From positions 1,610,001 to 1,674,000 of the forward strand of contig NC_003062.2 of assembly GCF_000092025.1 (NCBI RefSeq): DNA of 64,000 bases, written 5' to 3'. The DNA is from Agrobacterium fabrum str. C58 (GTDB lineage: Bacteria; Pseudomonadota; Alphaproteobacteria; Rhizobiales; Rhizobiaceae). Shown here one piece after another: positions 40,702-56,775 of the stretch (within the stretch, counting starts at the first letter, position 1; each line of letters starts with the position of its first letter). Below the pieces are notes generated by a model that was given only the letters and a program-made list of their open reading frames with translations, was not told where the DNA came from and did not search any database. Made by a program: the position numbers and the translations under genes.

Positions 40702-42180
40702 TTATTCGGCGTCGGCCTCAGTGGCCTTCTTCTTTGCCGGAGCCTTCTTCTTCGGAGCGGCTTCTTCGCCTTCAGCGGCGTCGTCAGCCTTGGCAGCAGC
40801 CTTTTTCTTGGCCGGAGCCTTCTTTTTGGTTTCCGTTTCTTCTTCGCCGTCGTCAGCCAGCAGCTCTTCCTTGGAAACGGTCTTGTCCGTTACCGAGATT
40901 TCGGTGAGCAGCTTGTCGATGACCTTCTCTTCGAAGATCGGAGCGCGCAGCGAAGCGGAAGCGCCGGGGGTGTTGCGGAAGAAATCGAGGATTTCCTTCT
41001 GCTGGCCCGGGAACTGCTGCAGCTGCTGGAACAGCGCGCGCTGCATTTCTTCTTCGGTCACTTCGACGCCGGCCTTTTCGCCGATTTCAGAAAGAACGAG
41101 GCCGAGGCGGACGCGGCGTTCAGCAAGCTTGCGATATTCTTCGCGGGCTTCTTCTTCGGTCGTGTCTTCGTCAGCGAAGGTCTTGCCGGACTGGGCGAGA
41201 TCGGTGTTGATCTGGCGCCAGATGTTGTCGAACTCGGCGTCGACGAGGCCAGCCGGCGTGTCGAACTTGTACATCTCGTCCAGCTGGTCGAGGATCTGAC
41301 GCTTGACCTTCTGGCGGGTGACGTTGCCGAACTGGCTTTCGATCTGGCCCTTGACGATCTCCTTCAGCTTTTCAGCCGATTCGAGACCGAGCTTTTCAGC
41401 CAGTTCGTCGTTGATTTCGACAGCAGCAGCGGCAGCAACTTCCTTGACGGTGACGTCGAAGGTGGCGTCCTTGCCTGCGAGGTTCGCAGCCGGGTAGTCG
41501 GCCGGGAAGGTCACAGTGATGGTCTTTTCGTCGCCGGCCTTAACGCCAACGAGCTGGTCTTCGAAGCCGGGGATGAAGCGGCCCGAACCGAGAACCAGTT
41601 CAGCGTCTTCAGCAGTGCCGCCATCGAAGGCAACGCCGTCAACCTTGCCGAGATAGTTCATAGTGACGCGGTCGCCATCAGCGGCCTTGCCCTTCTTGGT
41701 CTCGTAGGTACGGGCGCTTTCGGCGATCTTGAGGATCTGCTCGTTGATTTCGTCTTCGGAGACTTCAACAACTTCGCGGGTAACCTTGATGCCGTCATTG
41801 GCCTTCAGTTCGATGGCCGGAATGATTTCGTAGGCAACGGTGAATTCGAAATCGGATTCGGCCGACAGGATCTTTTCGGCTTCCTGCTCGTCTTCGGTCA
41901 TGGAGATGGCCGGCTGCGTTGCAGACTTCTCACCGCGGCTGGAAAGGATTTCGGAAGGCTTTTCACGAACCAGCTCGTTGACGAGGTCGGCCATGATGGA
42001 CTTGCCGTACATCTTCTTCAGATGGCCCATCGGCACCTTGCCGGGACGGAAACCGTTGATGCGAACCTTGTCCTTGGCGTCAACCAGGCGCTCATCCAGA
42101 CGGGCCTTCATGTCGGCAGCCGGGATAACGATTTTGAGTTCGCGCTTCAGCCCATCAGCGAGCGTTTCGATAACCTGCAT
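40702..42180 (-). CDS. tig: Trigger factor
   Basis: 492 residues from [20 protein letters not shown]. The ribosome-binding signature is [17 protein letters not shown]. The central FKBP-type domain has [19 protein letters not shown] and [11 protein letters not shown], followed by the helical chaperone arms. It has a long Lys/Ala/Pro-rich tail (repeated [10 protein letters not shown]) not found in E. coli Tig, histone-H1-like in composition. It assists folding of nascent chains and cis-trans prolyl isomerisation. Confidence 0.95.
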
Positions 42181-42420
42181 TTTCCTAACCTTCACATCAT
42201 GGCGGCGGTGCTCAGACAGCCGTTGGTTTACTTTCGAGCACTGCGCCGGAAACGTCGTTCCCCGGCCGTGGCTTCCCTTATTTCTTTACACAAGCGCCTG
42301 CCGGACACCGTTTCGCCTGCACCGGAGAAAAAGACCAAAGGGGAGAAATGAACCCCGAAGCTCCCCGCATCTTATAAAGATGCACTCTGGCACAAGCGTG
42401 GCACAGCCATGCTTTGCTTG

Positions 42421-42503
42421 TGGTGCGGGTAGAGAGACTCGAACTCCCACGCCGAAGCGTTGGTACCTAAAACCAATGCGTCTACCAATTCCGCCATACC
42501 CGC
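42421..42503 (-). tRNA. tRNA-Leu (anticodon TAG)
   Basis: 83 nt with encoded CCA. GCGGGTA pairs with TACCCGC. The anticodon stem TTGGT/ACCAA encloses TTTAGGT, giving anticodon TAG (leucine, CUA). The long variable arm CGCTTCGGCG is typical of class II tRNAs. Confidence 0.95.
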
Positions 42504-43159
42504 ACGTTGGGCGGCGGTATGTCACAATGTTCTGAAAGGGTCAAGCACGCCGTATGGCCGCCTTTCGTTTCCTTCGGACTTTTATTGACCGCACCTAACT
42601 GGTGGAAGGCGGCGAGCCCTCTTCCGCTGCTTGCCACCAGCGCGGGATGGAAATGAGCAGGCAATCAGGCAGGCGTTGTCCCGAACAGGAAAACCACCCG
42701 CATCTCCACCCTTCGTTCTCAATGCAGCCCCGCGCCTGCAAGGGAAGGCATCCGGCAAGGCGGCAATATTTATGCGGCTATGCTGACATTATATATAGCA
42801 CCGCTTGCGGCTGGCAGTGCCGAAGAGTTGCCCGCTGTCAAACCCCGCAATCCAGCCTTCCGCCTTCGCACACCGCCCCGCACCGGCTTGCACCGGCTCC
42901 GCCGCACGTCTTCGCATCGCAGAACCCTCTATAGCCACCAAAAGCTCATAAATTGGTCACAAATTATGCATGAATCACCGCAATCGGGTCAATTTACCGG
43001 CTTGCCTTGCGTTTCGTGCATAGGTGACATCTTGCTTTGTCTGTTTTTGTTTCGCTTAAACCGATTATATTCATGGTCATACAGAGATCAGTTCAGCCCC
43101 GGACCAAAGCCTCCCAAGACTGGCCGCAGAGACTGAACAGCACGAAGAGGAAGATGAAA
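42504..43159. other. Intergenic stretch upstream of a DUF1127 gene
   Basis: About 650 bp between tRNA-Leu and the first DUF1127 gene. No credible gene. It includes TTATATATAG around 42790 and the motif CACAAATTATGCATG around 42958. A similar CACAAATGCATG motif occurs upstream of the second DUF1127 gene, near 43623. Confidence 0.5.
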
Positions 43160-43306
43160 ATGAACATTGCACGCTCGCTGACCAACTGGCGCAAGTATCG
43201 TCAGACCGTAACCGAACTCGGCCGCATGAGCGACCGCGAACTGAATGACCTCGGCATCGGCCGTCAGGACATCCGCCGCGTCGCCAAGACCGCCGTCGGC
43301 TTCTAA
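43160..43306 (+). CDS. DUF1127 small protein, copy 1
   Basis: 48 residues: MNIARSLTNWRKYRQTVTEL, then LGRMSDRELNDLGIGRQDI and a short basic end. This is the DUF1127 (YjiS-like) family: arginine-rich, with the L-x-x-L-x-D-x-x-L-x-D-I-G pattern. AGAGGA lies nine bases before the ATG; a further ATG is at 43154. In related Rhizobiales these small genes, together with AbcR sRNAs, are activated by the LysR regulator VtlR. Shared TGCATG motifs upstream of this pair would fit common control. Confidence 0.88.
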   Translation: MNIARSLTNWRKYRQTVTELGRMSDRELNDLGIGRQDIRRVAKTAVGF

Positions 43307-43356
43307 TAATAAAACGCGCCGCCGCTCATTGCGGCGGATGCGAAGACGACTTCCCC

Positions 43357-43391
43357 AAAAAGGCCTGAGGCTCCCGTCTCTGGCCTTTTTT
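43357..43391 (+). terminator. Terminator of DUF1127 copy 1
   Basis: AAAAAGGCC and GGCCTTTTTT form a U-tailed hairpin about 50 bp after the stop codon. Confidence 0.85.
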
Positions 43392-43757
43392 CGTTTGGGC
43401 TCCGAACACCCAAATGCATCGTCGTGCATCTTCAGGGCATGACGCATCAAAACGCATGCGTCAAAGCAGCGCCGGCAGGCCCTCCGGCCTCCTCCGCCGG
43501 CCCGAAACACCCGCCAAAACCCTCCGCATCAGCCGAATCCAGCAAAAGCGCCCGAAACGCAGTCACTTCCGCCCATATTTTGCTCAGGTGCCGCTTGAAG
43601 CCGCAAATTTAGCCGACATAGTGCACAAATGCATGGCAGTAGCCTAAATTCTGCACTGCACAACATGGCCTAATGTCTATATATAAAACCTCAACAGCCG
43701 AGAGCACAGAAACACTGAGCCGGCCGACGAAATCAAAGAAAGATTGAGGAAACGATC

Positions 43758-43901
43758 ATGAACCCTATCCGCATCGCAAAGAACTGGATCTCCTACCGCC
43801 GCACGATCAACGAACTCGGCAGCCTGTCCAACCAGGCCCTGAGCGACATCGGCCTGACACGTTACGACATCCGTAACGTTGCTTCCCGTTCGTTCCGCTA
43901 A
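43758..43901 (+). CDS. DUF1127 small protein, copy 2
   Basis: 47 residues: MNPIRIAKNWISYRRTINEL, GSLSNQALSDIGLTRYDI and RNVASRSFR. About half of the residues match copy 1, so the pair arose by tandem duplication. TTGAGGAAACGATC gives a ribosome-binding site. A strong terminator follows at 43965-43990. The long 5' leader (450 bp from the previous gene) and CACAAATGCATG upstream suggest its own promoter. Role probably in RNA or small-molecule response, unproven. Confidence 0.88.
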   Translation: MNPIRIAKNWISYRRTINELGSLSNQALSDIGLTRYDIRNVASRSFR

Positions 43902-43964
43902 GGCGTAAAAGATCGTCCCGCTGCCCGACCTCCAGGGCGCGACGATCGAGCGACAGGTTTTAAG

Positions 43965-43990
43965 AAAACGGCGCCTCTGGCGCCGTTTTT
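43965..43990 (+). terminator. Terminator of DUF1127 copy 2
   Basis: AAAACGGCGCC-TCT-GGCGCCGTTTTT, 11-bp arms with a T-run, 63 bp after the stop. Confidence 0.92.
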
Positions 43991-44048
43991 GATTCCGGGG
44001 GTTCGGCTGGAGAAACCAGCCTTTGGAAAAGCGCCCGGCATCGCAGCA

Positions 44049-44080
44049 TATTTCTTCTCGCCAGCGACGAGAAGAAACAA
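44049..44080. repeat. Collapsed RIME remnant, copy C
   Basis: ATTTCTTCTCGCCAGCGACG followed directly by AGAAGAAACAAG joins the two ends of element A without the core. The flank (AAGCGGCATGCGCTCG) also resembles the flank of copy A (AAGCGACATCCACTCG). Confidence 0.6.
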
Positions 44081-44266
44081 GCGGCATGCGCTCGATCCAT
44101 AACGCCAATCGGCTCTTCCCGCGCTTATTCCCCCCGCAAAAACATTTGGCTGCCCCGGCCATGCATGCTAGTGCATCCCGCAACAATGCCGCGTCCCCGA
44201 GGGACCCGCGCGAACCATCACTCGAATGACAGCCGCCGGACGGGAGCTTTGCCCCGCGTGCGGTTC

Positions 44267-45724
44267 ATGGACGCCAGTATGCAAGACAAGACCCATTCTC
44301 CCATTCACGTCGTGGGCGGCGGACTGGCCGGCTCGGAAGCCGCATGGCAGATTGCTGAGAGCGGCGTGCCCGTCATCCTGCACGAAATGCGCGGCGTGCG
44401 CGGCACGGATGCGCATAAGGGCGATACGCTGGCGGAACTGGTCTGTTCCAACTCCTTCCGCTCCGACGACGCGACGGCCAATGCGGTCGGCGTCATCCAT
44501 GCGGAAATGCGGCTTGCCGGCTCGCTGATCATCGCCTGCGCCGACAAACACCAGGTGCCGGCCGGCGGCGCACTGGCCGTCGACCGTGACGGGTTTTCGC
44601 AGGCCGTGACGGATATGCTTGAAAATCACCCATTGGTGACAGTTGTCCGCGAAGAAGTAACAGGCCTGCCCCCGAAGGAATGGGGCAGCACCGTCATCGC
44701 CACCGGCCCGCTCACCTCACCGGATCTGGCAGCAGCGGTTCAGGCTGAGACGGGCGAAGATGCGCTGGCATTCTTTGACGCCATTGCCCCCATCCTGCAC
44801 CGCGACAGCATCAACATGGATATCTGCTGGTACCAGTCGCGTTACGACAAGGTCGGCCCCGGCGGCACGGGCAAGGATTATATCAACTGCCCGATGGATG
44901 AGGAACAGTACAACGTCTTCATCGACGCGCTGATCGCCGGCGACACGGTCGGTTTTAAGGAATGGGAAGGCACGCCCTATTTCGACGGCTGCCTGCCGAT
45001 CGAGATCATGGCGGAGCGCGGCCGTCAGACGCTGCGCCACGGCCCGATGAAGCCGATGGGCCTCACCAACGCCCATAACCCGACCGTTAAAGCCTATGCG
45101 GTCGTCCAGTTGCGGCAGGACAATGCGCTCGGCACGCTCTACAACATGGTCGGTTTCCAGACCAAGCTGAAATACAGTGTGCAGGCGGACGTGTTCCGCA
45201 TGATTCCGGGTCTGGAAAATGCGGAATTCGCGCGCCTAGGCGGCCTGCACCGCAATACCTATATCGATTCTCCCATCCTGCTCGACCGCTCGCTGAGGCT
45301 GAAATCGCGGCCCGACCTGCGTTTTGCCGGCCAGATTACCGGCTGCGAAGGGTATGTGGAAAGCGCCTCCGTCGGGCTGCTCGCCGGCCGCTTCGCCGCT
45401 GCGGAGCGCAAGGGCGAGGCCCCGAGCCTGCCGCCGGCCACCACGGCGCTGGGCTCGCTCCTCAACCACATCACCGGCGGCCACCTCTCATCCGATGATG
45501 AGCCGGGCAAGCGTTCCTTCCAGCCGATGAACATCAATTTCGGCCTGTTCCCGGAACTGGAGCCGGGCTCCATCGTCAAGCCTGATGGTGTGAAACGTTT
45601 TCGCGGCAAGGACAAGACGATCATGAAACGCCAGCTGGTTGCAGCGCGGGCGCTGAAGGATTGTGCGGCGTGGCTTGGCGTGGAACGCGTCGCAACGGAA
45701 CAAGAGAGCGACGCAACGCCATAG
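44267..45724 (+). CDS. trmFO: tRNA m5U54 methyltransferase TrmFO (folate/FAD)
   Basis: 485 residues. The N-terminal FAD-binding motif is [20 protein letters not shown]; characteristic family blocks are [31 protein letters not shown] and [13 protein letters not shown]. It methylates U54 of tRNAs using methylenetetrahydrofolate. An alternative ATG at 44279 ([11 protein letters not shown]) is closer to the Rossmann motif. A terminator hairpin follows the stop. Confidence 0.94.
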
Positions 45725-45751
45725 GCCCTGCCCGTATCTATCAGCCAGAAT

Positions 45752-45782
45752 AAAGGGGCGTGTGACCGCACACGCCCTTTTT
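45752..45782 (+). terminator. Terminator of trmFO
   Basis: AAAGGGGCGTGTG and CACACGCCCTTTTT form a strong T-tailed stem-loop 28 bp after the trmFO stop. Confidence 0.9.
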
Positions 45783-45874
45783 CCATTCCGGGTCACCGGA
45801 TTTTGCCTTGCCCGGCCAGCCGCGCTCGGGCAAAACCTTTTTACTTTGATATTAAAAGACTGAGGAGATCGAAT

Positions 45875-47002
45875 ATGGACGTTCGCGCCGCCGTTGCCAT
45901 TCAGGCAGGAAAACCGCTCGAGGTCATGACCGTTCAGCTTGAAGGTCCCCGCGCCGGTGAAGTGCTGATCGAAGTCAAGGCGACCGGCATCTGCCACACC
46001 GACGATTTCACCCTCTCTGGCGCTGACCCGGAAGGCCTGTTCCCGGCAATCCTCGGCCATGAAGGTGCGGGCATCGTCGTGGATGTCGGCCCCGGCGTCA
46101 CCTCGGTCAAGAAGGGCGACCACGTCATTCCGCTCTACACGCCGGAATGCCGCGAATGCTACTCCTGCACCTCGCGCAAGACCAATCTCTGCACCTCCAT
46201 CCGCGCCACCCAGGGCCAGGGCGTGATGCCTGACGGCACCTCGCGCTTCTCGATCGGCAAGGACAAGATTCACCACTATATGGGTTGCTCGACCTTCTCG
46301 AATTTCACCGTCCTGCCGGAAATCGCGCTGGCCAAGATCAACCCGGACGCGCCCTTCGACAAGGTCTGCTACATCGGCTGCGGCGTCACGACCGGTATCG
46401 GCGCCGTCATCAACACCGCCAAGGTCGAGATTGGCTCCACGGCGATCGTCTTCGGTCTCGGCGGCATCGGTCTCAACGTGCTGCAGGGCCTGCGTCTTGC
46501 CGGTGCGGACATGATCATCGGCGTCGATATCAACAACGACCGCAAGGCCTGGGGCGAAAAATTCGGCATGACCCACTTCGTCAATCCGAAGGAAGTCGGC
46601 GACGACATCGTGCCCTATCTCGTCAACATGACGAAGCGTAATGGCGACCTCATCGGCGGCGCAGACTATACGTTCGACTGCACCGGCAATACCAAGGTCA
46701 TGCGCCAGGCGCTGGAAGCCTCGCATCGCGGTTGGGGCAAGTCGGTCATCATCGGCGTCGCCGGCGCCGGCCAGGAAATCTCCACCCGTCCGTTCCAGCT
46801 GGTCACCGGCCGTAACTGGATGGGCACCGCCTTCGGCGGCGCGCGCGGCCGCACCGATGTGCCGAAGATTGTCGACTGGTACATGGAAGGCAAGATCCAG
46901 ATCGACCCGATGATCACCCACACCATGCCGCTCGAAGACATCAACAAGGGCTTCGAGCTGATGCACAAGGGTGAATCGATCCGCGGCGTCGTTGTTTATT
47001 GA
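45875..47002 (+). CDS. frmA: S-(hydroxymethyl)glutathione dehydrogenase (class III ADH)
   Basis: 375 residues. Catalytic zinc ligands are in GICHTDDF, GHEGAG and the later CGV; the structural-zinc loop is CRECYSCTSRKTNLC. The Rossmann motif is VFGLGGIGLNVL. It oxidises the formaldehyde-glutathione adduct, and can reduce S-nitrosoglutathione. TGAGGAG precedes the ATG. No S-formylglutathione hydrolase gene follows here; the next gene is a GNAT-like protein. Confidence 0.95.
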   Translation: MDVRAAVAIQAGKPLEVMTVQLEGPRAGEVLIEVKATGICHTDDFTLSGADPEGLFPAILGHEGAGIVVDVGPGVTSVKKGDHVIPLYTPECRECYSCTSRKTNLCTSIRATQGQGVMPDGTSRFSIGKDKIHHYMGCSTFSNFTVLPEIALAKINPDAPFDKVCYIGCGVTTGIGAVINTAKVEIGSTAIVFGLGGIGLNVLQGLRLAGADMIIGVDINNDRKAWGEKFGMTHFVNPKEVGDDIVPYLVNMTKRNGDLIGGADYTFDCTGNTKVMRQALEASHRGWGKSVIIGVAGAGQEISTRPFQLVTGRNWMGTAFGGARGRTDVPKIVDWYMEGKIQIDPMITHTMPLEDINKGFELMHKGESIRGVVVY

Positions 47003-47167
47003 TTCCAGACGAAGGTGGGCGCGCCTGACGGTGCGCCCGCCATTCATGCAAATGTGATCGCCGCCGGCCTCCTGCAGCCATGGCGATTAACGGCACGGTA
47101 AATCTATCGTCGTAAGCCAATACTGCGCGGCGGAGTTGAAAATCTCTCCCCGGCCAGAGCAAGGCCA

Positions 47168-48025
47168 GTGAGCGGAGAGCGACCCCTGAAAATCGTGCCG
47201 ATAGACAACGGAAACCGCGCCGCCGCCGTTGGCCTTCTGGCGAAAGGTTTCCCGGAAAAAAGCGAGGCCTTCTGGGCGCGTGGCCTGTCGCTTATCGGTG
47301 AACATCACGAGCGGCGTCATCTCGGCCCGATCGGCCAGTTGCTGATGAAGGGCGACGATGCCGCAGGTGTGCTGCTGACGATCAGAAGCCGCCTGCCCGA
47401 TACCGGCCGGGTTATCGTCAATCTTTCAAGCTGGTATGTCGAACCGTCCTGCCGCTGGTTCGCGCCGCGCATGCTGCAGATGGCGTCATCGGACGAAAAC
47501 GAACTCTTCACCGATCTCACCGCCTCGCCCGAAGCCAGCAAGCTGAACGAGCGGCTGGGTTTTCACACGGTGACGGATTGCACATTGTTTTATCCCCTGC
47601 CGCTGACGGCATTTCGTCCGGCAGGCGCGCGGCTCCATCCGCTGACGCGGACAACGGCGGAAACCCTGTCTTCTGAAATACGCGAGATGCTGGAAGACCA
47701 CGCCCGTCTCGGCTGCATCGTGGCCATCCTGGAGGCGGAAGGCCGACGCCACCCGCTGGTATTCCTGAAAACCACGACGAAGAAACTGCCCTCCGCCCGT
47801 CTGATCTATTGCGAGGACCGGGAGATCGCACAACGGCACCTGCCCGCCATTGCCCGCCACCTGCTTGGCAAAGGCCGGCTTGCCCTGACCATGGCGGCTT
47901 GCGAAAAAGACCGTCGCGCCGGTGGCTTTGCCGCACATAAATTCGCGCCAATACAAGTAAAAGGCGCATGGAACCCACAATTTATTAACGAAACATACTC
48001 AGAGTTGGTGTTATTGCCACCCTAG
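47168..48025 (+). CDS. GNAT-like acyltransferase beside the carrier-protein cluster
   Basis: 285 residues with a GTG start. The N-terminal part has the GNAT-like pattern GVLLTIRSR...VIVNLSSWYVEPSCRWFA and a strand-helix ASKLNERLGFHTV. The remainder may be a second, degenerate GNAT unit. It is 106 bp upstream of the acyl carrier protein gene and on the same strand. By context it may transfer an acyl group loaded on that carrier, or decorate the cluster's product. Homology is weak and substrate unknown. Confidence 0.65.
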   Translation: MSGERPLKIVPIDNGNRAAAVGLLAKGFPEKSEAFWARGLSLIGEHHERRHLGPIGQLLMKGDDAAGVLLTIRSRLPDTGRVIVNLSSWYVEPSCRWFAPRMLQMASSDENELFTDLTASPEASKLNERLGFHTVTDCTLFYPLPLTAFRPAGARLHPLTRTTAETLSSEIREMLEDHARLGCIVAILEAEGRRHPLVFLKTTTKKLPSARLIYCEDREIAQRHLPAIARHLLGKGRLALTMAACEKDRRAGGFAAHKFAPIQVKGAWNPQFINETYSELVLLPP

Positions 48026-48131
48026 GTATTCTAGTGAATCCTGCGTGACCTGATGGAATCCTGGCCTTTACAGGGAAAGCGTCGTTCCGGAGCGGGTCCA
48101 TGGGGATCAAACGGGGAATTGGAGAACAAGC

Positions 48132-48395
48132 ATGCTCGTGGCGAAAGAAAATGAAATCGACGTTGCCGACACCATTTATTCCTACCTTGCTGACCGTTTT
48201 CCCGCCTACACGCCTTTCTCCGCCGACACCGAGCTTCTCGAAGGCGGCGTGATCGATTCGCTCGGCTTTCTGGAACTGATGGTCTTTCTCGGCGAAAGTT
48301 TCGGCATCATTCTGAATGACGAGCATTTCACCCCTGACAATCTCGGCACGCCCGCCGATCTCATCACCTTCGTTCTGAGGGAACGGAGGAAATGA
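48132..48395 (+). CDS. Dedicated acyl/peptidyl carrier protein
   Basis: 87 residues. The phosphopantetheine-attachment serine is in the motif GGVIDSLGFLELMVFL (DSL, about residue 43), with a helical bundle pattern and acidic surface typical of carrier proteins. GGAGAACAAGC precedes the ATG. Its stop overlaps the start of the ligase (ATGA), so the two are translationally coupled and the ligase is very likely the enzyme that loads it. It is not the fatty-acid AcpP by sequence or context. Confidence 0.9.
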   Translation: MLVAKENEIDVADTIYSYLADRFPAYTPFSADTELLEGGVIDSLGFLELMVFLGESFGIILNDEHFTPDNLGTPADLITFVLRERRK

Positions 48396-49924
48396 CACCG
48401 CATTTCCTGCTGCACCATCTTCTGGCTGCCCGTGCGGCTAGCGAGGATCAGGCGCTTGTGCATAAGGAACAATCGCTGACTTATCGCGAATTCGCGGAGG
48501 CAGCAGCACATTGTGCAGCGGCATTGCATGAAGCAGGCACAGAGCGCGGCGATCGCGTCGTCATCTACCTGCCGCGCGGCTTCGAGGAATGCTGGTCGAT
48601 CTTCGGCGTCAGCATGGCATCCGGCGTTTTCGTGCCGGTCAATGCGCTGCTGAAGGCACAGCAGATTCGCCATATCGTTACCGACTGCGGCGCGAAGATC
48701 GTCATCAGCAGCATGGCAATGATGGATGAGCTGAAGGCAGCATTGACTGACCTTCCTGATATCACGATCCTGCTGGCGGAAGAGATCACGGCACGCAAAA
48801 GCGCGCCCGCCCGCCCTTCGGCGGCGATCGGCGAAGACCTCGCGGCCATCCTTTATACATCCGGCTCCACCGGCTCGCCCAAGGGTGTGATGCTGTCGCA
48901 CCGCAATCTTCTGGCCGGTGCGCGGATCGTGCGTACCTATCTCGATATTACCGGCAAGGACCGCATTCTCTCCCTCCTGCCCTTCAGCTTCGATTATGGT
49001 CTCAACCAGCTGCTGACGGCGGTGGAACAGGGCGCGACCACTATTATCTCCACCTTCCGGCTGGGCGACGAGATCGTCCGCGACCTGCGCGACCAGGCCA
49101 TCACCGGCCTTGCCGGCGTGCCGACCATCTGGGCGATCCTGACGCGGGCAGCCCCTTTGCTCGCGAAAACGCCCCTACCGCATCTGCGCTACCTCACCAA
49201 TTCCGGCGGGCGTGTGCCGCAGGAGACCGTGAAGGCGCTGCGCGAAAAGCTGCCGGACACGAAAATCTACCTGATGTATGGCCTGACCGAGGCCTTCCGC
49301 TCCACCTTCCTGCCGCCGGACGAAATCGACCGCCGCCCGACCTCCATCGGCAAGGCCATTCCCGAATGTGAAATCTTCATCGTCACCGACAAGGGACAAA
49401 GGGCAAAACCGGGCGAGCCCGGCATTCTCGTGCATCGCGGCCCAACCGTCTCTCTCGGCTATTGGAACCGGCCGGAAGACACCGCCAAGGTCCTGCGCCC
49501 TCACCCTTTCATTCCGGCTGCGCGCGGCGGCGAGACCGTGTGTTACTCCGGCGATCTTGCGGTGGAAGACGAGGACGGCTTCTTCAGCTTTGTTGCCCGC
49601 AACGATGCCATGATCAAATCCTCGGGCTATCGCATCAGCCCGACTGAGGTCGAGGAAAGCCTGATGTCGACGGGGCTTTTCCGTGAGGTTGCCGTCATCG
49701 GCCTGCCGGACCCGTTTGCCGGTGAAAAGGTGCATGCCGTGGCAACCGCGGCCAGTGAGACTATCGATGTTTCGGCAGCGCTGAAGAAGGCCGCCGAAAT
49801 GCTCGCCCCCTTCATGATCCCGCGCGCCATCGAACTGGTCGAGCGGCTGCCGATCACCGCCAATGGCAAGGTGGATTACCGCGCGTTGGTGCGCGAACGG
49901 ACGGACAATGGCGCCCACGGATAA
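48392..49924 (+). CDS. AMP-dependent ligase (acyl/aminoacyl adenylation enzyme)
   Basis: 510 residues of the ANL superfamily. Core motifs: ILYTSGSTGSPKGVMLSHRN (A3), YLMYGLTEAFRS (A5), YSGDLAVEDEDGFF (A7), ARNDAMIKSSGYRISPTEVE (A8) and ITANGKVDYRAL (A10, catalytic lysine). It resembles the AMP ligases found with carrier proteins and PLP decarboxylases in exosortase-linked loci. It should activate a carboxylic or amino acid and pass it to the adjacent carrier protein. The binding pocket does not reveal the substrate. Confidence 0.88.
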   Translation: MTPHFLLHHLLAARAASEDQALVHKEQSLTYREFAEAAAHCAAALHEAGTERGDRVVIYLPRGFEECWSIFGVSMASGVFVPVNALLKAQQIRHIVTDCGAKIVISSMAMMDELKAALTDLPDITILLAEEITARKSAPARPSAAIGEDLAAILYTSGSTGSPKGVMLSHRNLLAGARIVRTYLDITGKDRILSLLPFSFDYGLNQLLTAVEQGATTIISTFRLGDEIVRDLRDQAITGLAGVPTIWAILTRAAPLLAKTPLPHLRYLTNSGGRVPQETVKALREKLPDTKIYLMYGLTEAFRSTFLPPDEIDRRPTSIGKAIPECEIFIVTDKGQRAKPGEPGILVHRGPTVSLGYWNRPEDTAKVLRPHPFIPAARGGETVCYSGDLAVEDEDGFFSFVARNDAMIKSSGYRISPTEVEESLMSTGLFREVAVIGLPDPFAGEKVHAVATAASETIDVSAALKKAAEMLAPFMIPRAIELVERLPITANGKVDYRALVRERTDNGAHG

Positions 49925-51185
49925 ATCCCAGAACCACGGCCCGGCCCTTGCCGCCGGACTATTCGATATCAGCGAAAACGATCTATTGATCGGCGGACTT
50001 TCGGTGCGCGATATCGTTGCAGAAACCGGGACCCCGTGTTTTCTCTATGATAACAGCGCCATGCGCCAAGCCTATCGCGATCTCGAAACGGCGCTTTCCG
50101 GTTTTGCCGATATCTATTATTCGGTGAAGGCCAATCCCCTGCCCGCCATCATCTCACTTTTCCGCGAAGAAGGCGCCGGCGCGGAAATCGCCTCCGTTGG
50201 CGAATATCGCGCCGCTGTAAAGGCCGGCGTCGCGCCTGATAACATCATCTTCGCCGGCCCCGGCAAGAGCATGGCCGAATTGCGCGAAGTGATCGAGGGC
50301 GGTATCGGTGAAATCCACATCGAGAGTGCGGAAGAAATCGCCCGTATCGAGGCGATCAACAGGCCGGTCAAGGCGTCGATCCGCATCAATCCGGTGCCGG
50401 ATGCGCAGGCGGGCGCCATGCGCATGGGCGGCAAGGCCACGGCCTTCGGTTTCGACGAGGAGGAACTGGAAAACGTCCTGAAGCTCTTTGCGAACGTCAG
50501 ACATATCGATCTCGTTGGTATCCATATTTACGGCGGCACGCAGATCCTCGATGCCGACATGCTTGTCTCCCAATGGCGACACGCCATCGCTCTTGCAGGT
50601 CGCATGGCGCAAATGCTCGGCAAACCGCTCGAAACCATCGATCTCGGCGGCGGCCTCGGCATTCCCTATTTCGCCGGGGAAACATCGCTCGATCTCGCCA
50701 AGGTGGCTGCCGCCATTCCCGATCTCAAGGCGCTTCTAAAGGCGCATCCGCTGATCGCCGATGCCCATGTCATAGTCGAACCCGGCCGCTTCCTCGCCGG
50801 CCCTGGCGGCCTCTATGTGGTAGAGGTCAACTCGGTAAAGACCTCGCGCGGCACCACCTTCGTGGTCACGGATGGCGGCATGCACCACCACCTGGCAGCC
50901 TCCGGCAATCTCGGCCAGATCGTCAAACGCAACTACCCCATCGTCGCACCGGCCATGATGCAGGCGGCACACGATGAGACAGCCACCATCGTCGGCCCGC
51001 TCTGCACCCCGCTCGATACGCTCGCCCGCAATGCGACCCTGCCGAAACTGAACGCCGGCGATCTCCTCGCCATCCTGCAATCCGGTGCCTATGGCGCGAG
51101 CGCCAGCCCAGGCGGTTTTCTCAGCCATACGGTAGCGAAGGAAGTGCTGGTGGAGGATGGTGCGTTTGAGGTGATCGGGCGCTGA
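49908..51185 (+). CDS. PLP-dependent decarboxylase (LysA/ornithine decarboxylase fold)
   Basis: 425 residues. The PLP lysine is in YYSVKANPLPAI; other fold-III motifs are VGIHIYGGTQ, IDLGGGLGIPYF, VEPGRFLAGPGG and VGPLCTPLDTL. It starts 17 bp inside the ligase gene, so it is co-translated. Homologous trios (carrier protein, ligase, decarboxylase) occur in exosortase systems, but no exosortase or polysaccharide gene is here. It probably decarboxylates an amino acid, either free or carrier-bound. True substrate unknown; housekeeping diaminopimelate decarboxylase is less likely by context. Confidence 0.85.
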   Translation: MAPTDKSQNHGPALAAGLFDISENDLLIGGLSVRDIVAETGTPCFLYDNSAMRQAYRDLETALSGFADIYYSVKANPLPAIISLFREEGAGAEIASVGEYRAAVKAGVAPDNIIFAGPGKSMAELREVIEGGIGEIHIESAEEIARIEAINRPVKASIRINPVPDAQAGAMRMGGKATAFGFDEEELENVLKLFANVRHIDLVGIHIYGGTQILDADMLVSQWRHAIALAGRMAQMLGKPLETIDLGGGLGIPYFAGETSLDLAKVAAAIPDLKALLKAHPLIADAHVIVEPGRFLAGPGGLYVVEVNSVKTSRGTTFVVTDGGMHHHLAASGNLGQIVKRNYPIVAPAMMQAAHDETATIVGPLCTPLDTLARNATLPKLNAGDLLAILQSGAYGASASPGGFLSHTVAKEVLVEDGAFEVIGR

Positions 51186-51304
51186 GAGAGTTGCGACAGC
51201 GAACCGGCGCAGTTTTTCTGGCAGACGGATGCAGTCATCGCATTTAACTCTGCATCTTCAACCCCAACTATCCCCATACTGAGGACAATTTCAGCGGAGT
51301 CCGA

Positions 51305-51339
51305 ATGCGCCGGCGCGCGAATTCTTCGCGCCGGCGCAT
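51305..51339. terminator. Strong hairpin between convergent genes
   Basis: Perfect 13-bp arms ATGCGCCGGCGCG / CGCGCCGGCGCAT with a 9-base loop, between the decarboxylase and the Gly-rich gene. No T-tract on either side. Confidence 0.6.
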
Positions 51340-51356
51340 GTCAGGCAATGGCTCAA

Positions 51357-51944
51357 TCAGAATTTCCTAGGTGAGCAATAGGCGCCCTGGCACGCTGTAT
51401 ACGAAACCGAACCCTTTATTTTCGTTATAGTCGAGCGCTCCCCAGCGGGCGCACCGCTCATGCAACGGGTACGGCAATTTCCGCTATCGCGCCATCTGAC
51501 GACAATCGGGACATTGCAACTGTTGACGATGAAGTCGGCGAGCGAGTTGCTGCGCCGGTCGAACGTGACGCAACTGCTGGCGTCGGCGGAAGCATTCTCA
51601 GCCCGCTTTTTTTTCGCCTCCATCGCCCGACGCCAGCGCTCGCGGGATTCTCGATTGAGTTGATCGCCGGACTTTTCTTCTCCTGCCGACGCCTCAGGGC
51701 GCCCAGATGGAGCATTGGCCAACCCTTGAAGAAGCAGGCCCATACCCAGGCCTATAAGGGCGCCTGTTGCGGCGGAGCTACCGGAACCACCACCGCCGCC
51801 GCTACGTCCGCCGCCACCGCGTGTCTCGATCCCATGCGAAGAACCGTGACCAGCCATTGCTTGTGATGACGTATCGACCACCGCACCGAAAATTATTAAA
51901 AGTGACGCGACGGCAGCGCGGATTGTAAAAGGTTTAAAGTACAT
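51357..51944 (-). CDS. Secreted Gly-rich, Cys-rich protein of unknown function
   Basis: 195 residues from MYFKPFTIRAAVASLLIIFG, a signal peptide. Then a glycine/serine-rich linker (GGGGRSGGGGGSGSS), a short hydrophobic segment (GALIGLGMGLLLQGLA), a charged helix and a C-terminal domain with five cysteines (SCVTF, NSCNVP, NCRTRC, ACQGAYC) likely paired in disulfides. AGAGGA precedes the ATG. Divergent from a LuxR-type regulator; the intergenic region is AT-rich. Confidence 0.65.
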   Translation of the reverse strand: MYFKPFTIRAAVASLLIIFGAVVDTSSQAMAGHGSSHGIETRGGGGRSGGGGGSGSSAATGALIGLGMGLLLQGLANAPSGRPEASAGEEKSGDQLNRESRERWRRAMEAKKKRAENASADASSCVTFDRRSNSLADFIVNSCNVPIVVRWRDSGNCRTRCMSGAPAGERSTITKIKGSVSYTACQGAYCSPRKF

Positions 51945-52247
51945 CAAGAGATATTCCTCTATTAGAGTAGTATAATCGCGGTAAAATTCCGTTTGAAACA
52001 GCTTATCCCGGCGCTCCCCGTTCCCGCAGCAACGGTTCACAATTCCCTTCAATCTCCTCTGGTTTTGTTCGCGTATTCATACATTGACGCCGCTATGCAC
52101 CACTCACCCAATTGGAGTAGCGACTAAAATTCGTACCGTTTCGGTCGAAAAAATCATTAAACTACAGATAGACTTCAACATTTAGAGATATACTATACTG
52201 TAAACTTTAATTATTATTTAGTAATACTTAAATCTCAAAGGCAACCC
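51945..52247. other. AT-rich divergent promoter region
   Basis: About 300 bp between the Gly-rich secreted protein and the LuxR-type regulator, with an A/T-rich part near 52140-52240. No gene seen; it should contain both promoters. Confidence 0.5.
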
Positions 52248-53345
52248 ATGGTGTGTACCGCGTGGAATATTGACGGGCTTGCGGAGATTTTTTCGGACGC
52301 GGCACTCGGGCGCCAAACCTGGCGACATGCCCTTGACGCATTAAGCGAGGGAATTGGAGCGACCGGCGCCGCGTTTATACCACTCAAGGGCGCAGCAGCG
52401 CAGCTCCCAACAAGTTCGAGCTGCGTGGAGTTAGTCGATCAATATTTGAAGGACGGTTGGAGCAAGGCCGATCCACGCTTTCGTGGAGTTTCGATGTTGT
52501 ATCGCGAGGGTTTAGTTACGGATCTGGATTGCCTGACTGTAGAGGAAATAACCAGAGACCCCTTTTATCAGGAACTACTCCGCCCTTTCGGTCTGAAGTG
52601 GTTCGCCGGAATAAGGATAAAAGGACTTGAGGAGGAGTGGGCGCTGTCCATACAGCGGTCTGAGGCGCAAGGACCGTTTTGCGACGCCGAGACCGGCCTG
52701 CTTCTACGCTTGTCCACGAGCCTGTCGGCCAACGCCTTGCTTGCCGAGACGCTTGCGTCCTCCAGCGCCGTTGCAGCGCTTGAGACTTTCAATTTAAGCG
52801 ACAAGGCGGTTGTGATGTTGAACCGCCTGGGCGAGGTCGTTCGCACCACTGTTGCGGCCGATAAGATGTTTGACGACGATCTGCGTATTCGGGACAAACG
52901 CCTTGTTTCGGCATGCCGACAGTCGGCGACGCGGCTCGAACGCGCCATCGGTCGGGCATGCACGCATCCACAGGAATGTTTTAACAACCCCGTATTGTTA
53001 AAAAGGTGGAACTCGACGCCAGTCGTCGCCTTTGTTTCTCCTGCTAGAGGCGTCGCCAGAGACATTTTTTCACCCTGCCAGACCTATGTCATCCTGGTCG
53101 ATCCATACGAGCGCGGCACACCGGCAGCGGCGGTTCTGCAAGAACTTTTCGGCCTGACCCGCACCGAGGCCGCATTGGCTGGACGTTTGTCTCGCGGAGA
53201 AGCCCTGCGTGACATCGCGCGCGTCATGGCAATGTCCTACGAAACGGCCAGAACTCATCTTCGCAGCGTGTTCGCCAAAACTGGCCTGAACGATCAGGCC
53301 GATCTCGTCGCGTTTCTTTTACGCCTGGATACAGGAATGAATTAG
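52248..53345 (+). CDS. LuxR-type (GerE HTH) transcriptional regulator
   Basis: 365 residues. The C-terminal HTH is clear: LFGLTRTEAALAGRLSRGEA, LRDIARVMAMSYETARTHLR and SVFAKTGLNDQADLVAFLL. The N-terminal 250 residues lack autoinducer-binding signatures and resemble PAS/GAF-like sensor regions of orphan LuxR proteins. It carries seven cysteines, so redox sensing is possible but unproven. The 5' flank is AT-rich. Likely regulator of the divergent secreted protein. Confidence 0.82.
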   Translation: MVCTAWNIDGLAEIFSDAALGRQTWRHALDALSEGIGATGAAFIPLKGAAAQLPTSSSCVELVDQYLKDGWSKADPRFRGVSMLYREGLVTDLDCLTVEEITRDPFYQELLRPFGLKWFAGIRIKGLEEEWALSIQRSEAQGPFCDAETGLLLRLSTSLSANALLAETLASSSAVAALETFNLSDKAVVMLNRLGEVVRTTVAADKMFDDDLRIRDKRLVSACRQSATRLERAIGRACTHPQECFNNPVLLKRWNSTPVVAFVSPARGVARDIFSPCQTYVILVDPYERGTPAAAVLQELFGLTRTEAALAGRLSRGEALRDIARVMAMSYETARTHLRSVFAKTGLNDQADLVAFLLRLDTGMN

Positions 53346-53349
53346 CAGA

Positions 53350-54522
53350 TCACCCCCGCAGCAACCTGTCCCCCACCGCGAATTTCGATTTCAGCAGACA
53401 CTCATCATATTCCGCCTCCGCCACGGAATCGAACACGATGCCGCCACCGACATTAAAGACCGCACGGCCGTCATCGAACAGCGTCATCGTGCGGATCGCC
53501 ACCGAAAACCGCATATCACCATTGGGGGACATAAAGCCGATCGCGCCGCAATAGGCGTTTCGCGACGACGCTTCCAGTTCACGCAGGATTTTCATCGCCC
53601 ACATTTTTGGCGCGCCGGTGACCGAGCCGCAGGGAAACAGGGCCGAAAAAATGTCCTCCACGGTCACCTCGGGCAGAAGTTTCGCCCTGACATGGCTGAC
53701 CATCTGATGCACGGTCGGATAAGTCTCGATATCGAACAGGCGCGGCACATCGAGGCTGCCGACTTCGGTGATGCGGGAAATGTCGTTGCGCAGGAGATCG
53801 ACGATCATGCGGTTTTCGGCGAGCGTCTTGTCATCCTCAAGCATCGCCGCGATGATCGCCCGGTCCTCTAGCGCATTCGCGCCGCGCGGCGTGGTTCCCT
53901 TCATCGGGTGGGTTTCGATAAAACCCTCGCCATCGACCGAGAAAAACAGTTCCGGCGAACGTGACAGGATGATCGGGCCGCCAAGATCAACCAGCGCGCC
54001 GTATTTCACCGGCTGGCGTTCGATCAGCGACCAGAAGGCCGTTAGCGGATCGCCATTCCAGCCGGCATGCACGGGCATGGTCAGATTGCCCTGGTAACAA
54101 TCTCCCCGGCGCAGATGATCGTGCAGCTTCCCGAAACGCTGCTGATATTCGGGAAGCGTCCAGGCCGCTACCGGATCGGTAAGAAACGCGTCCGCATCTG
54201 GCACCGCGTCAGGCCGCGCAAAGCGACCCTCATCCGGCTGCGGGCCGGAGAAGACGCCGAAATTCAGAAACGGTACATTGCGGGGCTCGGCGGCAAAGGG
54301 CGCAAGTTTCGGTTCGAACAGGAAACCGGCCTCGTAGGACATATAGCCGGCGAGATATTTCCCGGCACGGCGCAACTCTTCCATGCGCTGAAGCGCGGTA
54401 AAAAACGCCTCGGGCTCGTCCGCGACGATGATTTCCTCCGGCTCGGTGAAGGCTGTCACCGTGCCGGTCGTGTCATCCCGGAAAAGAACGTAAGGCGCAT
54501 GTGCCAAGGAAAGCGTCCGCAA
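53350..54522 (-). CDS. pabB: Aminodeoxychorismate synthase component I
   Basis: 390 residues of the chorismate-utilising family. Motifs are THPMKGTTPRG (the K that distinguishes PabB from anthranilate synthase), VDLLRNDISRI, LFPCGSVTGAPKMWAMKIL and RNAYCGAIGF. It adds ammonia to chorismate to form aminodeoxychorismate for folate. No fused pabC domain. Its 3' end is 4 bp from the convergent LuxR gene stop. Confidence 0.92.
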   Translation of the reverse strand: MRTLSLAHAPYVLFRDDTTGTVTAFTEPEEIIVADEPEAFFTALQRMEELRRAGKYLAGYMSYEAGFLFEPKLAPFAAEPRNVPFLNFGVFSGPQPDEGRFARPDAVPDADAFLTDPVAAWTLPEYQQRFGKLHDHLRRGDCYQGNLTMPVHAGWNGDPLTAFWSLIERQPVKYGALVDLGGPIILSRSPELFFSVDGEGFIETHPMKGTTPRGANALEDRAIIAAMLEDDKTLAENRMIVDLLRNDISRITEVGSLDVPRLFDIETYPTVHQMVSHVRAKLLPEVTVEDIFSALFPCGSVTGAPKMWAMKILRELEASSRNAYCGAIGFMSPNGDMRFSVAIRTMTLFDDGRAVFNVGGGIVFDSVAEAEYDECLLKSKFAVGDRLLRG

Positions 54523-54544
54523 CAGGAGGAAGAGTCGGAAAAGA

Positions 54545-55675
54545 TCAGACCGGGTCTATGTCGCCCCGCGCCCACATTTCGATGGTTTCCGCATAAAAAT
54601 CGGCGAAACGACCTTCCTCGATCGACGTGCGGATACCCTGCATCAGCTCCTGATAATAGGCAAGATTGTGCCAGGAGAGCAGCATGCCGCCCAGCGCTTC
54701 GTTGGAGCGCGTGAGGTGATGCAGATAGGCGCGGGAATAATCGCGCGAGGCCGGGCAGTTGGACTGCTCGTCGAGCGGGCGCATATCCTCGGCATGACGG
54801 GCGTTGCGGATGTTGACGCGGCCACGGCGGGTAAACGCCAGCCCGTGACGGCCCGAGCGGGTCGGCATCACGCAGTCGAACATGTCGATGCCGCGCGCCA
54901 CCGATTTCAGGATATCGTCAGGCGTGCCGACACCCATCAGGTAACGCGGCTTTTCGGTGGGCAGCACCGGCAGCGTGATATCGAGCATGCCGAGCATCAC
55001 ATCCTGCGGCTCGCCGACGGCAAGACCGCCGACGGCATAACCCTTGAGATCAAGTTCTTTCAGCCCTTCGGCGGAACGGATACGCAGGTCCGGCTGGTCG
55101 CCGCCCTGGACGATGCCGAACATGGCCTTGCCGGGCTGTTCGCCAAAGGCGACGCGGCAGCGCTCGGCCCAGCGCAGCGACATTTCCATGGCACGCTCGA
55201 TTTCCTTACGCTCGGCCGGCAGCGCGATGCACTCGTCAAGCTGCATCTGAATGTCCGAATCTAGCATGCCCTGAATTTCGATCGAGCGTTCCGGCGACAT
55301 GTGGTGCAGCGAACCGTCCACATGGCTCTTGAAGGTCACGCCCTTCTCGTCGAGCTTGCGCAGGCCGGAAAGCGACATCACCTGAAAGCCGCCGCTGTCG
55401 GTGAGGATCGGGTGCGGCCAGCGGATCAGCTCGTGCAGACCGCCGAGACGGGCAACGCGCTCCGGGCCGGGCCGCAGCATCAGGTGATAGGTATTGCCGA
55501 GAATGATATCGGCCCCCAGCTCGCGCACCTGGTCGAGATACATGGCCTTGACGGTACCAACGGTGCCAACCGGCATGAAGGCGGGCGTGCGGATGACACC
55601 GCGCGGCATGGCGACTTCGCCAAGGCGCGCGCCGCCGCTCGTGGATTTCAGGGTGAAGGTGAATTTCTCGTGCAT
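54545..55675 (-). CDS. tgt: tRNA-guanine transglycosylase, with reduced zinc site
   Basis: 376 residues. Active-site aspartate region [13 protein letters not shown] and the second catalytic segment [12 protein letters not shown] are present. The zinc-binding block usually reads C-x-C-x-x-C; here it is [18 protein letters not shown], with only one cysteine of three, though the distal histidine (SWHNLAYY) is kept. It exchanges guanine-34 for preQ1 in tRNA. It overlaps the stop of queA (TGATG), forming a queuosine operon. Confidence 0.93.
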
Positions 55676-56775
55676 CAGTTTTTCCGGAACAACAGGCTGG
55701 AATCGCCATAGGAATAGAAGCGGTATCCGGTTTCGATGGCGTGCCTGTAAGCGTCACGCATCGTTTCGAGACCGCAGAAAGCCGAAACCAGCATGAACAG
55801 CGTGGATTTCGGCAGATGGAAATTGGTCATCAGCATATCGACAGCGCGGAAACGATATCCGGGCGTGATGAAGATGCCGGTGGCATCGGACCATGGGTGG
55901 ATGGTGCCATCTTCGGTGGCCGCACTTTCGATCAGGCGCAGCGAGGTGGTACCGACGCAGACGATGCGCCCGCCCCGCGCCTTCACCGCATTCAGCCGGT
56001 CAGCAGTCTCTTGCGACACATACCCGATCTCGAAATGCATCTTGTGATCGTCGGTATCATCGGACTTCACCGGGAGGAAGGTGCCTGCCCCAACGTGAAG
56101 CGTCACGAAATGCCGTTCGATGCCGGCACTGTCGAGCGCTTCGAACAGATCGGGGGTGAAATGCAGCCCGGCGGTGGGGGCGGCAACCGCACCCTTCTCG
56201 CGGGCGTAAATGGTCTGATAGTCGGTCTGGTCCTGCTGGTCCTCGGGCCGCTTGGCGGCGATGTAAGGCGGCAAAGGAATATGGCCAACAGAGGCTATCG
56301 CCTCATCCAGCACCGGGCCGGAAATGTCGAAAAGCAGCGTGATCTCGCCCTCCTCGCCCTTTTCCTCGACGGTGGCTTCGAGATGGGCAAGACCGCAGGC
56401 CCCGCTGGATGAATTAACAGTGTCGCGGTCATAACCGAAACGGATACGGTCGCCTTCTTTGATGCGCTTGCCGGGCCGCGCGAAAGCCTTCCAGCGGGAT
56501 TGATCGGCACGCATATGCAGCGTCGCCGACACCGCCGTTTCCGGCGCACCTTCGCGCAGGCGCACGCCTTCCAGCTGGGCGGGAATGACACGGGTGTCGT
56601 TGAAGACAAGCGCATCACCGGGCCTCAGGAACGACGGCAGGTCGAAGACGCGATGGTCTTCCATGCGGTTTTCATTCGGATCGACCACCAGCAGGCGCGC
56701 GCTATCGCGCGGGTTCGCCGGGCGAAGGGCGATATTCTCCTCGGGCAGGTCGAAATCGAACAGGTCTACACGCAT
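55675..56775 (-). CDS. queA: S-adenosylmethionine:tRNA ribosyltransferase-isomerase
   Basis: 366 residues. It starts [20 protein letters not shown], the canonical N-terminus of QueA. Further blocks are [30 protein letters not shown] and [19 protein letters not shown]. It forms the epoxyqueuosine intermediate on tRNA downstream of Tgt. An in-frame ATG at 56865 would add unrelated residues. First gene of the queA-tgt pair. Confidence 0.95.

Follow-up and report, generated by a model that had tools for sequence, protein, structure and literature searches.

The locus described here lies in a 64,000-nucleotide stretch of the Agrobacterium fabrum C58 genome (NC_003062.2, positions 1,610,001 to 1,674,000; the window, whose own coordinates are used below) and consists of four genes that all read in the forward direction between positions 47168 and 51185. 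The first (47168-48025) starts with GTG and encodes a GNAT-like protein of 285 residues with two GNAT-fold halves. It is followed by genes for a stand-alone carrier protein of 87 residues (48132-48395), an AMP-forming ligase of 510 residues (48392-49924) and a fold-III pyridoxal phosphate (PLP) decarboxylase of 425 residues (49908-51185). All four frames are intact, each with a single terminal stop. The carrier and ligase genes overlap by 4 nt (ATGA) and the ligase and decarboxylase genes by 17 nt, and 106 nt separate the end of the GNAT-like gene from the carrier start. An earlier ATG at 49863 exists in the decarboxylase frame; aligned relatives favoured the start at 49908. This layout agrees with the original prediction, made from the letters of the window, which had proposed that the genes activate an acid, load it on the carrier, decarboxylate it and transfer the product. 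That outline is broadly right, with corrections to its substrate logic and its spread, and the cassette probably makes a carrier-bound beta-amino acid, with ligase, decarboxylase and double-GNAT protein acting in sequence.

Pfam searches assigned AMP-binding and AMP-binding_C to the ligase and Orn_Arg_deC_N and Orn_DAP_Arg_deC to the decarboxylase, and returned no match for the GNAT-like protein or the carrier. The top NCBIfam matches of the two enzymes were TIGR03098 (576.6 bits, curated cut-off 592.35) and TIGR03099 (414.5 bits, cut-off 478.45), both labelled exosortase A system-associated. For the carrier, NCBIfam gave weak matches (AmcB, OlsHI-type and DltC carriers), each of them under cut-off, and its motif G-V-I-D-S holds the predicted phosphopantetheine site, Ser43. 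The GNAT-like protein belonged to no NCBIfam family either.

To see how the genes are kept together we compared loci within the genus. The decarboxylase (E ≤ 1e-60) was found in 24 of 39 Agrobacterium genomes, our own of 5.67 Mb and four contigs included, and 20 of the other 23 loci were fetched for gene-order comparison. In every one of these 20 the GNAT, carrier, ligase and decarboxylase genes stood in identical order, preceded in 19 by a class-III alcohol dehydrogenase gene. One locus (L238) carries the set at another site and in a strongly diverged form (36-68% identity). Close relatives of the window locus came from Agrobacterium and one Rhizobium rhizogenes record. The class-III dehydrogenase was also present in all 15 Agrobacterium genomes that lack the set; in eight of them a pabB-like gene lies closely behind it, and in the other seven no pabB match was found within the 1.5-kb flank covered. 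In 19 of the 20 set-bearing loci no more than 1.7 kb separates the decarboxylase from a pabB-like gene downstream. Since the flanks adjoin in eight of the set-free genomes and the pabB-like gene is near the decarboxylase in these 19 loci, the gained or lost block is essentially the four genes. In the window it spans 47004-51290, between the dehydrogenase gene, which ends at 47002, and the pabB-like gene, its right border being approximate.

Ratios of nonsynonymous to synonymous change (NG86 dN/dS) were 0.08-0.32 for the four genes against 11 Agrobacterium loci, with the carrier saturated against L238 and giving no value, and 0.29-0.45 against a Phreatobacter locus (L117). Taken together, the four genes are a real conserved unit, gained and lost in one piece, as the original prediction of one dedicated set had supposed. 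In one of the 20 loci (L233:4154-4998; genome G497) the GNAT gene is split over two frames, for which decay and sequencing error are both possible.

The spread beyond the genus was surveyed in 297 genomes drawn evenly from the order, where 21 had the decarboxylase at the same threshold and 32 had the GNAT (E ≤ 1e-3). Twelve of the 21 belong to a single genus, taken as Phreatobacter; ten of these loci were fetched, and the four-gene order was found in all ten, with at least three distinct gene environments among them. A Methylobacterium locus (L118) has carrier, ligase and decarboxylase, as have two of the four f42/g86 loci (L067, L068), and the other two (L062, L066) have the decarboxylase alone in the 20 kb fetched. 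Relatives of the ligase (E ≤ 1e-75) occurred in 40 of 199 genomes of the family, yet besides our own genome only one was close (G480, same genus, 90%), the rest being at 49% identity or less and most at 36-44%. The four-gene set is conserved together in Agrobacterium but is not general in Rhizobiaceae, the family in which the original prediction had suggested to look for it. In one Methylobacterium-type locus (L067:11837-18911) the carrier-ligase-decarboxylase genes stand beside those of a transglutaminase, a circularly permuted ATP-grasp protein and a DUF2126 amidoligase. At L071:8056-10488 (genome G265) the decarboxylase domain lies inside an 810-residue frame, a possible fusion.

A scan of named genomes with the decarboxylase gave at least 598 stretches. 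Among the best 80, several of which are cut by contig ends, a ligase was found in 77, a carrier-profile match in 54 and a GNAT-profile match in ten, and a wider GNAT profile, built with members of those loci, again gave ten. The GNAT-bearing loci are two Agrobacterium-type records, Phreatobacter, Aminobacter, two Blastopirellula, Zoogloea, Streptosporangiaceae, Micromonospora and Nocardioides. Looser four-gene sets occur in Planctomycetota, Actinomycetota and Zoogloea, and gene order varies outside Agrobacterium and Phreatobacter. In an Acidobacteriaceae locus (L122:3998-5014) a 339-residue protein with weak Pfam GNAT matches, missed by our GNAT profile, precedes carrier, ligase and decarboxylase.

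Ligase-decarboxylase-carrier sets had been likened to those beside exosortase systems, with the remark that no exosortase gene is present here. This extends to the whole of our genome, where PF09721 had no match (one of 14 control genomes had one), and an exosortase system was rejected for this cassette. Among 35 tested genomes of the 80, some of them drafts, 24 had an exosortase match, 23 of these above cut-off. In the ten GNAT-bearing genomes, again including drafts, it was found in three (both Blastopirellula and Zoogloea) and in none of the other seven, and it was not detected with the actinomycete four-gene sets. Exosortase does not define the set, because seven of the ten GNAT-bearing genomes are without a match. 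The window enzymes resemble the TIGR03098/TIGR03099 pair in their top family matches and in the nearly constant company of such a ligase at the named decarboxylase loci, but differ in that they, like the Phreatobacter enzymes, score under the curated cut-offs and come from a genome in which no exosortase was found. Our literature search found no paper that gives a reaction for the exosortase-associated ligases or decarboxylases, or a link between such a GNAT and a carrier, and unfound reports may exist in print.

Comparison with characterised ANL enzymes gave a more definite picture of the acid, which had previously been left open. When the pocket loop was searched, the best solved matches were to VinN (3wv4, 3wvn), aligned free of gaps, and the loops of DltA and the second LgrA domain were 3 and 2 residues longer. 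In the full-length search LgrA came first by summing two domains (139.8 + 181.8 bits), and VinN was the best single-domain match (221 bits). A review (PMC11253843) identifies 3WV4 and 3WVN as VinN, which uses D230 for the beta-amino group together with F231, S299 and, on a shortened loop, K330/R331; it also names CmiS6 and IdnL1 as beta-amino-acid ligases. The window ligase has D201, Y202, S271, F302 and R303 at these places, and shares with VinN the pocket Asp, the aromatic residue, the Ser, the Arg and the short loop. An offset of 16 between PDB chain and published VinN numbers was deduced from S299, K330 and R331 all fitting. The equivalence of D201 and Y202 was drawn through CmiS6, IdnL1 and the family alignment instead of residue by residue against VinN; the fragment around D201 matched at E ≤ 1e-3 only these two beta-amino-acid ligases, and weakly (E about 4e-4).

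In the fetched loci, all 17 ligase-cluster members with at least 35% identity have D201 and R303, with Tyr202 in 15 (Ala in 2) and Ser271 in 14 (Thr in 3). The site is covered by 19 of 21 AMP-ligases of lower similarity; R303 is in none of these and the pocket Asp in ten. In the named loci, TE-x-x-R was read in 75 of 79 ligase rows, and the residue after the pocket Asp was Tyr in 29 and Ala in 42, with 8 unreadable by pattern. Because of this Tyr/Ala split, the results suggest that the wider ligase family uses more than one acid. From the VinN-like pocket one would predict that the window enzyme activates an aspartate-like acid at its side-chain carboxylate, so that the substrate is likely to be an amino-dicarboxylic acid held via its side-chain carboxylate, with the alpha-carboxylate left free for the decarboxylase. 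That the acid is of the aspartate type, instead of glutamate or another, we put at even chances.

The decarboxylase could in principle be an ordinary diaminopimelate, lysine or ornithine decarboxylase with unrelated neighbours, and it does match the lysA family TIGR01048 (275.5 bits). This is under the cut-off of 297.9 and below its TIGR03099 score, and our genome has three PF02784 decarboxylases, one of which is a separate LysA (485.2 bits), so the window enzyme is not the only candidate for that role, a point on which the original prediction had made itself depend. At C366 the CExGD motif of LysA is altered to CTPLD: the window enzyme reads GPLCTPLD, BtrK GPLCTPED, the genome's LysA GPVCETGD and the third paralogue GPTCDSAD. 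It is at this motif position that such enzymes recognise the distal amine of their substrate. The predicted PLP lysine is K74. As the four genes also come and go together, an ordinary decarboxylase is hardly credible, and we rejected the lysine/diaminopimelate assignment on score, motif and the separate LysA.

Its best solved relative was instead BtrK of butirosin biosynthesis (269.8 bits, the next kind at 174.5), which decarboxylates a glutamyl-carrier (PMC7857480). With BtrK as nearest solved enzyme and the LysA motif gone, decarboxylation on the carrier is quite probable. The gap of about 95 bits in favour of BtrK also speaks for a variant of the same module, in which L-glutamate would be loaded through its gamma-carboxylate and the product would be a gamma-aminobutyryl-carrier as in butirosin. 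BtrJ, however, is an ATP-grasp ligase and the window loading enzyme is AMP-forming, the pocket loop follows that of VinN, a 3-methylaspartate/aspartate enzyme, and chain length cannot be read from similarity to BtrK. Apart from the substrate, the window set shares with the butirosin BtrI/BtrK system the GPLCTPxD motif and a carrier of 87 residues. We regard glutamate as a minority possibility, perhaps one chance in a few.

The closest proven counterpart of the proposed aspartate-type pathway is the VinN/VinL/VinO set, which makes the beta-amino acid starter of vicenistatin. It likewise combines a stand-alone AMP-forming ligase, a stand-alone carrier and a PLP decarboxylase whose substrate is the loaded carrier, and according to PMC11284099 the thioester on the carrier must form before decarboxylation. 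In the sequence of steps that we infer, an acidic amino acid, with L-aspartate or something close to it as the favoured candidate, would be adenylated by the window ligase at its side-chain carboxylate and loaded on the 87-residue carrier, whereupon the decarboxylase would strip the alpha-carboxylate to leave a beta-alanyl-carrier or near analogue. The double-GNAT protein might then take the aminoacyl group off the carrier and join it to an acceptor amine, or else acylate the free amine of that group. The window set differs from the vicenistatin genes by its double-GNAT gene, and neither a frame of PKS size nor a gene like VinM or VinK was seen near it; the longest frame listed in 42000-56500, the stretch in which NRPS and PKS modules were looked for, has 519 residues. 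A beta-alanyl product could also suggest that the set supplies beta-alanine for coenzyme A by a second route, but panD is present in our genome (PF02261, 129.1 bits), the decarboxylase is absent from 15 of 39 Agrobacterium genomes, and the GNAT would be left without a role, which makes such a route very improbable.

The GNAT-like protein is the cassette part that could prove new. Its structure model (pLDDT 92.3, pTM 0.89) shows a double-GNAT fold, as in 3ddd, the Clostridium glucosamine N-acetyltransferase 5kga, Eis and the N-myristoyltransferases, from which it differs in identity (about 6-14%), an altered CoA loop and its carrier-gene neighbourhood. The pyrophosphate loop for acetyl-CoA canonically reads R/Q-x-x-G-x-G/A, and the window protein has R96-W-F-A-P-R at this position. 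The full motif occurs in none of the six readable members among seven from other genera, and Nocardioides keeps the first Gly. This bears on the possibility that the protein N-acetylates the carrier-bound amine from acetyl-CoA as a protecting step, with another enzyme releasing the product. The predicted fold would suit it, a decarboxylation-derived amine is a natural GNAT substrate, and a protecting step is known in VinN-type pathways (PMC11284099), as in vicenistatin formation, where an amino acid is attached by VinM. With the loop replaced, we consider N-acetylation less likely than not.

Relatives of the GNAT-like protein were found near three kinds of carrier-loading set, namely VinN-like ligase with decarboxylase, short AMP-ligase with SDR, and tRNA-synthetase-like Bll0957 ligases. 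Since its relatives sit beside all three, the most probable role of the protein is to transfer or alter aminoacyl groups held on a carrier. In one case (L077:9018-10915) a relative lies directly behind a Bll0957-type amino acid--[carrier protein] ligase with a carrier-cluster gene near; this ligase is a seryl-tRNA-synthetase homologue and not of the AMP-binding kind, and no decarboxylase of the present kind was found there. To our knowledge the biological role of such ligases in Bradyrhizobium and its kin is open, and the GNAT-like protein, whose relatives adjoin them too, would tie the present chemistry to their purpose. In Aminobacter (L119:6202-10302) the GNAT gene is downstream of the decarboxylase and its product groups with GNATs of other carrier sets (99/96), which makes a second recruitment possible, but the tree also allows all decarboxylase-set GNATs as one side of a branch, with one change (78/72, 79% of 200 bootstrap trees). 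This ambiguity lowered our estimate that the protein acts on a carrier-bound aminoacyl group from slightly better than even to even. We more tentatively propose that it founds a family of carrier-protein-dependent aminoacyltransferases used with three unrelated loading enzymes, that the cassette is a portable unit by which amines of the cell surface or of small molecules receive beta-alanyl-type groups, and that the exosortase A-associated ligase and decarboxylase are its glycan-linked branch; this has perhaps a third of the weight.

Several observations count against a beta-amino acid cassette of this design. The nearest decarboxylase of known activity acts on glutamyl and not aspartyl groups, VinN K330 is replaced by F302, and in 42 of the 79 ligase rows from named loci the pocket Asp is followed by Ala. 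The GNAT is the most divergent part between genera (dN 0.68 against the Phreatobacter locus L117, 0.25-0.43 for the other three genes), ligase and decarboxylase often stand without it, and other genes lie between set members in Zoogloea and Nocardioides. Moreover, the window genes examined next to the cassette included none recognisable as an acceptor, exporter or glycan gene.

A surface glycan could provide the acceptor in related sets, through the amine of one of its sugars. Glycosyltransferase genes were close to the set in five loci (L069, L143, L192, L122 and L137), with a Wzy-type gene also near in L143 and one below cut-off in L069. Because no such gene was recognised beside the window cassette, a glycan acceptor, if any, must be made elsewhere in the genome, and we hold transfer to a glycan or sugar amine to be less likely than not. 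For the two NCBI families, present in many environmental bacteria under an exosortase-associated label without a reaction, the pocket and motif evidence offers a concrete chemistry, and the set occurs in genomes without a detected exosortase.

A defence system was rejected, as PADLOC gave no match for the six proteins submitted. Between the decarboxylase and pabB (51357-53345) the window also holds a 231-residue open reading frame on the minus strand and a LuxR-type regulator gene (GerE 20.8 bits, cut-off 23.5). No counterpart of either turned up in the 20 other Agrobacterium stretches fetched, except for a 43-residue LuxR-like remnant in one of them (L273).

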